A DNA stretch of 33,334 bases from a virus: IMG/VR virus record IMGVR_UViG_3300034375_002447, positions 1-33,334 of that record, one strand, 5' to 3'. Numbering within the stretch: the first letter of the stretch is position 1; each line of letters begins with the position of its first letter. This document shows, piece by piece, positions 3,928 to 11,115 of the stretch. A program made the position numbers and the translations under genes. The notes beneath the pieces are model-generated. The model had not been told where the DNA came from. It saw only the letters and a program-made list of their open reading frames with translations, and made no database searches.

Positions 3928-4129
3928 TCATTTCTCCGCTGGAAACGCCTAGCTTATCAGAGATGAGGTGTACAAACAGTGCCAAACTCTTCTCCATTTC
4001 AGCGACCCTGTTGTTGCTTTCATAGACAGCCTTGTGCAGTTCATCGACGCGCACAAACAAATCGTCGATGCTGTCCTGCATGTCATGTGGTGTGACATGC
4101 GGGGTGTATGTGTCATCAGGATCAGCCAT
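3920..4129 (-). CDS. small coiled-coil protein, unknown
   Basis: From the ATG at 4129 the protein has 69 residues. Residues 17-55 (SIDDLFVRVDELHKAVYESN and NRVAEMEKSLALF) have a heptad-like pattern and should form a coiled coil. AAGGAG precedes the ATG by 10 bases, and the start overlaps the upstream stop by 8 bases, so I prefer it to the longer 85-residue reading. Its place directly ahead of the annealing-protein gene suggests an accessory role in recombination, but I recognise no family. Confidence 0.65.
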   Translation of the reverse strand: MADPDDTYTPHVTPHDMQDSIDDLFVRVDELHKAVYESNNRVAEMEKSLALFVHLISDKLGVSSGEMND

Positions 4130-4625
4130 TTGATACGTTCTCCTTATCGTCACGCAGCACATGCACCAGTTCCTCAACGAAACCCACTGTCAAGCCGTAG
4201 TTTTCGACGCAACCGCGATAACGCTCCAACCATGCAGCCAAAGATACGCCAGCTTGACGCCGCAATTCTGCCTGTGCATTTTCATCGTTGGGATCAAACG
4301 GCTCGTAACCGCCGCCATCTCTGCGCTTGGCGACAGGAGATATGTACGCAGGGTACTCGGTGACCTTGATGGCCAACACCTCGCTGTCCACACTTTCTGT
4401 TTTGGCCACGATACGCAAGCCACTCGCAAGCCTACGCGCCATGTCGATACGAAACTGCCGCGCTGCTTCTGCATCATCCATCCCATAAAACGCCTCATAG
4501 GCCTCATGCTCTGGTTGTTCTTGCAGCCAATCGACAAACTCACCTGGCACAAACATGTTTGCACCTGTTACTTGCAGATAGTCGTCAATGATACGCTGCT
4601 TAGTCTTCTTAGAAAAATTAGCCAT
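4122..4625 (-). CDS. conserved phage protein of unknown function
   Basis: A 167-residue soluble protein that I do not recognise. The N terminus MANFSKKTKQRIIDDYLQVT looks helical, the middle (AEAARQFRIDMARRLASGLR followed by EVLAIKVTEYPAYISPVAKR) mixes helix and strand, and the C-terminal half has a helical stretch around RQAGVSLAAWLERYRGC. A Shine-Dalgarno GGGAGA is close to the ATG. It is the first gene after a long repetitive untranslated leader (4650-4925), so it is the first product of the downstream transcription unit that makes the annealing, SSB-like and DnaA-like proteins. Confidence 0.75.
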   Translation of the reverse strand: MANFSKKTKQRIIDDYLQVTGANMFVPGEFVDWLQEQPEHEAYEAFYGMDDAEAARQFRIDMARRLASGLRIVAKTESVDSEVLAIKVTEYPAYISPVAKRRDGGGYEPFDPNDENAQAELRRQAGVSLAAWLERYRGCVENYGLTVGFVEELVHVLRDDKENVSNG

Positions 4626-4649: not shown

Positions 4650-4925
4650 GATTGATAGTGGATTGCCTCGCCCAGACAGGCCGCAAAACGCCGGATCTCT
4701 CCACGCCTCAACTTGACCGCCTAAACTTGCCTTCCCACACCGGAACTGAACCGGACAAAACAGAGCGAACCGTGACCGCCTCGCCTATCCTTGCCATGCC
4801 GTAACATGACTTGCCGTTGCAAGCCTCACCATGACCGCCTAGTCCCACCTAACACTGCCAGTCCTGACCATACCGAGACCGCCTCGACATACCAGTCCTA
4901 AACATATCTAACCGCGACCCGTGAA
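4650..4925 (-). repeat. gene-free, GG-doublet repetitive leader
   Basis: This roughly 275-base stretch holds no plausible gene. On the minus strand GG doublets recur every 4-7 bases, for example CGGCATGGCAAGGATAGG at 4784-4801, where GG repeats at exact 5-base steps. A longer unit is superimposed: AGGCGGTCA (plus strand TGACCGCCT) occurs at 4714, 4773 and 4832, two 59-base steps, with a variant at 4876. It sits between a terminator at 4926-4945 and the gene ending at 4122, so it would be transcribed as a 5' leader or act as a protein-binding or promoter region. Possible roles are discussed under findings. Confidence 0.7.
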
Positions 4926-4945
4926 AGGGGCGGCGCACCGCCCCT
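4926..4945 (-). terminator. intrinsic terminator-like hairpin
   Basis: AGGGGCGG-CGCA-CCGCCCCT is a perfect 8-base-pair hairpin just past the stop of the gene at 4955-5716. In the leftward direction it is followed by TTTCACGGG, a short T-run, so termination may be partial. It closely resembles the hairpin after the capsid cluster at 18618-18643. Confidence 0.65.
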
Positions 4946-4954
4946 GTCAAATTA

Positions 4955-5716
4955 TTAGGCTGCTCTGCGCAACCGTTCTTCTTGGATGAACTGCATCAAT
5001 TCCGCTGTCTGTTCATCGGCGCATTCTGGCTGTTCCATAGCCAATTCCTGCACCGCACGCCCCTCTTTAGATGTCTCATCCCAGATTTCTTGCATGTCAC
5101 CCATATCTTCAGAACTGGCCACCTTAAATGTGCCATACATGCCCTTTCCCTTTTCCTGTCGGAAATCACCAATGCCTACGATAGTGCCGGCGTTCTGCAA
5201 CAAAGACACAATGGAATGCGATGATAGAGTCGGTATAACGAACTTGATGTCCACCTCTGCGCACCAGTTAGGCAAATAAGCACGAGTGCGCACATCAGGC
5301 GTCCTGTTCATGTCAGCAGACCGCACAATATCCATCTTCAAGTAAGGCTTACCCCAAATTTGTATATGGCTTTCTGGCAAAAATATCAGGCGCTGCACGC
5401 TGCTCTTTGTAATACCAGCGGTTTCCAATGCAGCGGTAGACATGGCCGCCTTTACGCCAGCGGCTGGGAAGCAAAGGTAGGTGTCGCCTTTCGACTTCTT
5501 ATAAATGCTCTCACGATATTCTTGTTCTGGATTGTGCTTGATATCCTTCTTCTGAGCAGCGGTTTTTTTGCCGCCACCGACAAGCAGATCACGCCACGCC
5601 TTTGCCCCCATACTATTAAAGTACATCGGTGTTTGCCCAATCATGCGCAGCTTGATACGACCCTGCTTAAGTGCATGAATCTCCATAGTTTCAGTAGTTT
5701 TTTTAGTTACGGCCAT
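4955..5716 (-). CDS. conserved phage protein with RAMP-like glycine-rich loop
   Basis: From the ATG at 5716 (GGGAGA 5 bases upstream) this is a 253-residue protein without a recognised enzyme motif. Notable parts are FPAAGVKAAMSTAALETAG (about 88-106), RTRAYLPNWCAEVDIKFVIP (about 149-168) and a C-terminal glycine-rich loop NAGTIVGIGDFRQEKGKGMY (about 180-199) followed by GTFKV. The GxGxxRxxxGxGxxGxF pattern resembles the loop of RAMP/Cas7-type ferredoxin-like RNA-binding proteins, but phages carry uncharacterised families with the same loop, and no repeat-processing partner is present. The start codon at 5716 lies inside the 3' end of the upstream gene. I treat the function as unknown; a nucleic-acid-binding role in the recombination module is reasonable. 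Confidence 0.75.
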   Translation of the reverse strand: MAVTKKTTETMEIHALKQGRIKLRMIGQTPMYFNSMGAKAWRDLLVGGGKKTAAQKKDIKHNPEQEYRESIYKKSKGDTYLCFPAAGVKAAMSTAALETAGITKSSVQRLIFLPESHIQIWGKPYLKMDIVRSADMNRTPDVRTRAYLPNWCAEVDIKFVIPTLSSHSIVSLLQNAGTIVGIGDFRQEKGKGMYGTFKVASSEDMGDMQEIWDETSKEGRAVQELAMEQPECADEQTAELMQFIQEERLRRAA

Positions 5717-10296: not shown

Positions 10297-10914
10297 CTAG
10301 AATAGTGCAAGCTGGCATTCGGCGGGTGCCGGTGCTTGTGTCGGGAATAGCGCGGGAAATAGGCTAGACGCTGCCGGTTGCGCCATTGGCGGCAGTTTAG
10401 CTGATGGGCAAAGGCAAGCGGACGTGCCGTCTGCAATCCCTGCCGTGCGGCTGCCACATGCGCAATGCTTTGGCTGTGCCGGTGCCGCGTGTTTGAATGG
10501 CGTTGTGATACGGATCACGTTTTTAACGATCTTCCGACGCCCCCAAAACTCGGCAATGGGTTTGACGCCGCTCTGATCTGCTACAGTGCCATTACATACG
10601 ATCTGCACATGACTGCCAGTCGTTACCATGTAAACAGCATCCTTTGCCGTGAATTGATCGACAAAGCGATATAACGGGCCGCGCGTACCTTTGGGCATGT
10701 AGGTTTCATGTCCTACGTCTAGCCGATCTAAAACCTTTTTCTGGTCTGTTGTGTATGTGCCGCCTTTCCAGCGCTTGCCATATGTGCGCGGGTTTACCGC
10801 TTTGAAGGCATTCCAAGCACGGGCGAATGATACGCCCGATGCAATGGCAACAGCAGTCACGCCGCAATTCGGGCCTTTGCGTTGGTCGGCAGGGTTTGCA
10901 AGCTTGATAGTCAT
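10297..10914 (-). CDS. papain-like cysteine peptidase (C39-like) with a Pro/Cys-rich tail
   Basis: A 205-residue protein. Cys17 sits in GPNCGVTAVAIASGVSFARA, the N-terminal helix pattern of papain-fold C39-like peptidases. His102 is in the following strand (VTTGSHVQIVCNGTVADQSG), and Asp113 is a candidate third residue. Residues 141-205 form a separate low-complexity tail rich in Pro, Ala and Cys (CACG, CLCP). Phages carry such domains in accessory regions; the substrate is unknown and may be a host protein or a peptide. An unprocessed non-catalytic binding role is also possible. AGGGGGC precedes the ATG. Confidence 0.72.
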   Translation of the reverse strand: MTIKLANPADQRKGPNCGVTAVAIASGVSFARAWNAFKAVNPRTYGKRWKGGTYTTDQKKVLDRLDVGHETYMPKGTRGPLYRFVDQFTAKDAVYMVTTGSHVQIVCNGTVADQSGVKPIAEFWGRRKIVKNVIRITTPFKHAAPAQPKHCACGSRTAGIADGTSACLCPSAKLPPMAQPAASSLFPALFPTQAPAPAECQLALF

Positions 10915-10923
10915 TGCCGCCCC

Positions 10924-11115
10924 CTATCGCTGCAAACTTGCTTTGAAGTCTTCGGCTTCGTACTGGTCCGGCCTGTCATAGAAGTCTGTGCTAATCCACT
11001 TGCCGTTATGCTTGGCGAGAAGTGGATGCTCATCACCGAGCGTTGGATGCTCAAAGAATGAAACACCGGCAACAGTGAATAGGTATGCTGGCTGATTATA
11101 ATTGACGTTATTCAT
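10924..11115 (-). CDS. small protein, unknown
   Basis: A 63-residue protein from the ATG at 11115, MNNVNYNQPAYLFTVAGVSF followed by FEHPTLGDEHPLLAKHNGKW and ISTDFYDRPDQYEAEDFKAS. It is not recognised and has a probable beta-rich fold. TAAAGGATCA lies before the start, which is why the longer 78-residue reading is not used. It is the first gene of the leftward cassette, so it should be transcribed from the control region at 11116-11180. Confidence 0.64.
   Translation of the reverse strand: MNNVNYNQPAYLFTVAGVSFFEHPTLGDEHPLLAKHNGKWISTDFYDRPDQYEAEDFKASLQR

Follow-up and report, generated by a model that had tools for sequence, protein, structure and literature searches.

A GKYNN pentamer array beside a Vipr-like gene in an uncultivated virus very probably specifies VIPR guide RNAs

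VIPR is a phage weapon that was first reported in 2026; it is related to CRISPR and is used against competing phages (PMC13142463). It consists of the RAMP protein Vipr and of guide RNAs (vrRNAs) in which GGY and NN alternate; the NN letters pair with DNA, and one target base is skipped (PMC13142463). The vrRNAs published for SUSP1 and P. fulva contain 9-16 repeats each (PMC13142463). The VIPR experiments cover two closely related systems, and VIPR was proposed to be a forerunner of CRISPR (PMC13142463). The locus studied here resembles the type II system of Escherichia phage SUSP1 (PMC13142463; PDB 36pp; locus L490) in having a small accessory gene after a Vipr RAMP gene. It also resembles that system in its GGY/NN pentamer vrRNAs, which in SUSP1 stand before and after the genes, and in the reading with a skip of one base. 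With Class 1 CRISPR-Cas it shares the RAMP fold of the Csm3/Cas7 backbone, a guide array and guide letters that stay unread, namely every sixth base in Class 1 CRISPR-Cas and three of five letters here. However, the locus has no CRISPR-type repeats and no adjoining cas genes, its NN code is gapped and it is phage-borne. TIGR-Tas (PMC12045711), as far as its description goes, is likewise a phage-borne tandem guide array adjoining a protein gene, but differs in protein family (Tas) and in guide layout.

The window, that is the whole stretch of DNA analysed, is the 33,334-base record of an uncultivated virus. On its minus strand, positions 4660-4918 form a run of G-K-Y-N-N pentamers, and the heptamer GGCGGTC opens each of four units whose upper ends lie at 4883, 4839, 4780 and 4721. 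A hidden Markov model (HMM) of the pentamers scored a single array in the 33 kb, at 4663-4918 of the minus strand (119.6 nats), and none in six first-order shuffles of the window. The autocorrelation of GG was maximal at lags 5, 10 and 15. The GG doublets and repeats reported initially are located as described, with direct copies of AGGCGGTCA at 4714 and 4773 and a 15-base repeat family at 4769, 4828 and 4872. The 59-base step between copies is real; it merely reflects two adjacent units of equal length, as unit lengths follow 5n+4 (44, 59 and 59 in the window). Each window guide holds 7 to 11 NN pairs. A search of Rfam with the stretch gave no match, and named phages and plasmids held no DNA homologue of it. 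The stretch is very probably a VIPR guide-RNA array of five guides.

The array sits directly 3′ of a gene on the minus strand (4955-5716) predicted to encode a guide-RNA-binding protein of 253 amino acids with a RAMP/Cas7 fold, as judged from fold, profile and alignment. The mechanical open reading frame extends to 5794; the start conserved in an alignment of 48 relatives is at 5716. An AF2 model of the product had a pLDDT of 87, and the 50 PDB matches that Foldseek listed (best E 8.6e-7) were CRISPR effector subunits without exception, Csm3 and Cas7 for the most part. A profile of the product matched the PDB entry 36pp, ‘SUSP1 Vipr protein’ (E 1e-5). With the full SUSP1 Vipr, hhalign gave 96.1% (E 3.5e-9) over 52 columns, and the aligned portion includes a GxGDxR loop that is invariant among the 48 relatives. 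The protein combines a RAMP fold with a glycine-rich loop and is related to SUSP1 Vipr, although its length in the window clade is about 250 residues as compared to 195 in SUSP1. We refer to the gene as vipr.

On the other side of the array, a conserved minus-strand gene (4122-4625, 167 amino acids) is the candidate accessory (vap) gene. By its position alone it is probably an accessory gene: it adjoins the array in 72 of the about 90 loci found by pattern, as described below. Its product matched no fold and no Pfam family, and is unrelated to Vap1 of SUSP1. A scan of ten neighbouring proteins revealed no Cas family. A further minus-strand gene (2202-2648), at the operon's far end, encodes a 148-residue protein with the C-terminal DNA-binding domain of DnaA only (PF08299, E 2e-14); the initiator ATPase part of DnaA is missing.

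The layout of the guides departs from that of SUSP1. In SUSP1, every vrRNA is a separate RNA that ends in a structured 3′ tail; the window guides are packed in one array with GGCG as the only separator. Of the two marks of type II, a conserved structured 3′ tail per vrRNA was not seen on units of the window clade, and in place of vap1 there is a partner gene whose product is not a Vap1 relative. At each junction the pentamers GGCGG and GTYNN have one G in common. The ‘staggered arrays with overlapping vrRNAs’ mentioned for VIPR (PMC13142463, fig. S18) may have the same layout. The compact, apparently tail-less packing of the guides differs from the type II layout.

Relatives were gathered through the two flanking genes, 4955-5716 and 4122-4625, with 80 IMG/VR loci retrieved from each. 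These loci yielded 65 distinct homologous intergenic regions of 185 to 1168 nucleotides, and the same pentamer pattern was seen in all 25 regions inspected by eye. A scan for the pattern only gave about 90 loci, nearly all true multi-unit arrays, on contigs of about 45-70% GC. The 5-base register is common to the 65 regions and to these loci, so the expectation that the doublet phase is kept in related phages while the bases between change was borne out. Over 330 distinct units, the pentamer is composed of G (95%), G (65%) or T (27%; together 92%), C or T (96%) and two free letters. The motif is therefore GKYNN and not a strict GG doublet as first proposed, though the register itself is real. 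As the second G is T in 27% of pentamers, the suggested two-tier quadruplex is not conserved either. GGCGGTY-to-GGCGGTY distances in the 330 units are quantised at 5n+4, mostly 34-79 in relatives, with mostly 6-15 NN pairs per unit. A ring protein (TRAP or an annealase) taking a fixed number of 5-nucleotide steps along the stretch was ruled out because the number of pentamers per unit ranges from about 4 to 14. Gene order varies on one strand throughout: vipr-array-partner, vipr-partner-array, or arrays flanking the partner on both sides.

The one-base-skip code was tested with the NN letters of 425 non-redundant units against about 6.7 million positions of phage DNA, on both strands and with arrays masked. 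An earlier pass had given 14 strong matches, two of them on contigs retrieved with the window's own guide patterns; such contigs were masked in the 425-unit test. With a skip of one base, 6 of 425 guides matched at E<0.01 and 2 at E<0.001. Seven controls (skips of 0, 2 and 3, three shuffles and one reversal) gave 0-1 matches at E<0.01 and none at E<0.001; the contiguous reading (skip of 0) of the 425 units found no target at all. Targets were found for only a small share of guides in the phage DNA searched. The best-supported targets of the clade lie in genes for the large and small terminase subunits, the major capsid protein and a Sak4-like ATPase, where the skipped base falls on the codon wobble position. 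These genes are located on viral contigs, which are putative competitors. Another VIPR-carrying lineage (L068, L164, L170 and others) is the target of guides from phages near the window, which point to its terminase and capsid genes; in the reverse direction, guides of that lineage (L173, L177 and L222) point to the ATPase gene in relatives of the phages near the window.

Seven guide-target pairs were laid out. In each, the first NN pair behind GGCGGTY, or one close to it, opens the match, which never runs past the unit; four of the seven fill the unit save at most one letter, and three fail at the last one to three NN pairs. Because matches begin after GGCGGTY and stop within the unit, a guide of the VIPR array is best taken to be one GGCG-separated unit, GTYNN(GKYNN)n. 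A guide extending across the GGCGG junction was unsupported in these seven pairs. The pentamer HMM also picks up the published SUSP1 vrRNAs, although they lack GGCGGTY marks.

The initial annotation had proposed a structured leader RNA, or an antitermination control, acting on the downstream recombination and replication genes. The stretch does precede gene 4122-4625 and the rest of its operon, which share its strand, and a conserved hairpin lies ahead of it. This GC hairpin (4927-4944, minus strand) follows the vipr stop codon and precedes guide 0; 59 of 65 relatives have one of 6 bp or more at this place, in 25 different sequences. The preceding terminator noted initially is thus present as a hairpin, but a terminator scan did not flag it; in relatives, the T run is often absent from the hairpins at the array start. 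Against such a leader, the fold z-score of the stretch (-1.29) does not indicate clear structure and Rfam holds no counterpart; its length is not fixed among relatives, and the array stands after, not before, the partner gene in many of them. Control of recombination genes would also leave unexplained that NN letters spell genes of other phages. We consider this reading very improbable and largely refuted. The stretch was rightly described as gene-free. A coding reading was ruled out, region lengths varying freely among relatives; the sole plus-strand frame inside the stretch, a 50-residue ORF, was dismissed as a chance occurrence.

We then consider the five window guides, all on the minus strand. 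Guide 4 is the last unit (4660-4721; NN = AA GA GT GA CC GT GC CT TG GA). Its first nine NN pairs (18 letters) are matched exactly in 28 IMG/VR contigs. The tenth pair (GA), which was outside the search pattern, fits in 28 of 28, giving 20 of 20 letters; the pairs in shuffled order had no match in IMG/VR. All 28 targets are ribonucleotide reductase genes of nrdJ type, matched on the sense strand in phase 0 at the motif YKEVDPVALWD, with the skipped base at the wobble position. An NCBIfam scan of one target assigned it to the adenosylcobalamin-dependent (B12-dependent) class II enzymes (NrdJ_Z). Since they represent a single gene family and one conserved motif, the 28 matches count as one observation. 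Among the loci of the set, guide 4 occurs in the window's own record only. B12-dependent reductases of this type also occur in Roseobacter and Pseudomonas phages.

Guide 0 (4884-4918; NN = GC TA AT TA CT AT GA) shows the same NN letters in 18-20 of 20 divergent arrays, whereas its K and Y letters vary, as the code would predict for a guide that is retained. These data bear on another proposal, that the stretch acts as DNA: an array of binding sites, a replication origin or R-loop element, or a quadruplex. Strand asymmetry and a short repeated motif would fit such an element. However, the GG doublet is not kept, the drift of K and Y around constant NN letters is opposite to the pattern expected of a site array, and the target matches are gapped. 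We find a DNA-level element hardly credible. In IMG/VR, guide 0 had at least 120 matches, four among the 120 listed lying in SU10-type adaptor genes on the right strand and in the right phase; this is no more than suggestive of such a gene as a putative target.

The remaining guides were assigned from the pentamer register, in the case of guide 1 together with its 5n+4 length. Guide 1 (4840-4883, 44 nucleotides) opens with GGCGGTC and reads NN = TC AT CA CT AG TA GG TA. Guide 2 (4781-4839, 59 nucleotides) reads NN = AT GA TT AC AA AT AC AT AA TA GA and guide 3 (4722-4780, 59 nucleotides) NN = AC TC CT TT CG CA CC GT AA AA TA. The six IMG/VR matches of guide 2 and the single one of guide 3 lay in unrelated genes without extension and were judged to be chance. 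Searched against the DNA of relatives, the only DNA set used for guide 1, the window guides gave no target.

The fit of pentamers to GKY is about 72% in the window as compared to about 85% in relatives. The window array is more degenerate and for that reason may have partly decayed. If the VIPR array were decaying or inactive in the window phage and had ceased to guide anything, this poorer fit would be explained, as would the lack of a convincing target for guides 2 and 3. Yet the vipr and partner genes of the window are intact and strongly conserved, guide 4 still agrees with its target at every letter and guide 0 has kept its NN letters. We regard a dead array as unlikely.

By analogy with the described systems, the VIPR array would be transcribed into guide RNA (PMC13142463). 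Vipr subunits would align along the RNA, grip the GKY letters and expose the NN letters (PMC13142463). Each pair of NN letters would base-pair with DNA and skip one target base. The complex would bind double-stranded DNA and silence the target gene (PMC13142463). Through this silencing, the array-carrying phage would repress competitors in the same cell (PMC13142463). The initial annotation was right on the conserved phase and on the non-coding nature of the stretch; the meaning proposed here differs from every reading it offered, and the adjoining RAMP (Vipr) gene had gone unrecognised.

The locus and its relatives provide an independent confirmation of the gapped code, from sequence only, in a clade distant from the VIPR systems studied. 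Readable targets are gained (nrdJ, terminase, capsid), and several hundred guides offer material on how phages acquire, keep and exchange them. Taken jointly, several features may amount to an undescribed VIPR architecture: tail-less multi-guide arrays with GGCG-only separators, an accessory protein with no fold match, constant NN letters in the first guide of divergent phages, and a pair of VIPR-carrying phage lineages whose guides target each other's packaging, capsid and recombination genes. We put forward this combined reading tentatively, at somewhat less than an even chance.

Several further observations were made among the relatives. A pattern-only scan of genome contigs gave three loci; arrays are carried by a Candidatus Binatia MAG (L236) and an Amaricoccus MAG (L237), and these arrays in bacterial assemblies may belong to prophages or hint at hosts. 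The viral contig IMGVR_UViG_3300026302_000005 (L166; 375,937 bases) has a full GGCGGTY array (317 nats) at 10496-11022, together with vipr and partner genes; it represents a very large phage, or else a prophage with host DNA attached. In L011, L013, L033 and L049 the 3′ end of the array is closed by a second conserved hairpin (GTGGTGGGCTGTAGTGGCCCACTAC and variants), which the window does not have. The guide unit GGTTTCGGTATGGTCAGGTCTGGTAGGG (and variants) is common to the otherwise different arrays of L044, L130, L133 and L037, as if single units were exchanged between phages. Finally, L183, L192 and L228 carry very long or double arrays, with up to 24-25 junctions per contig.
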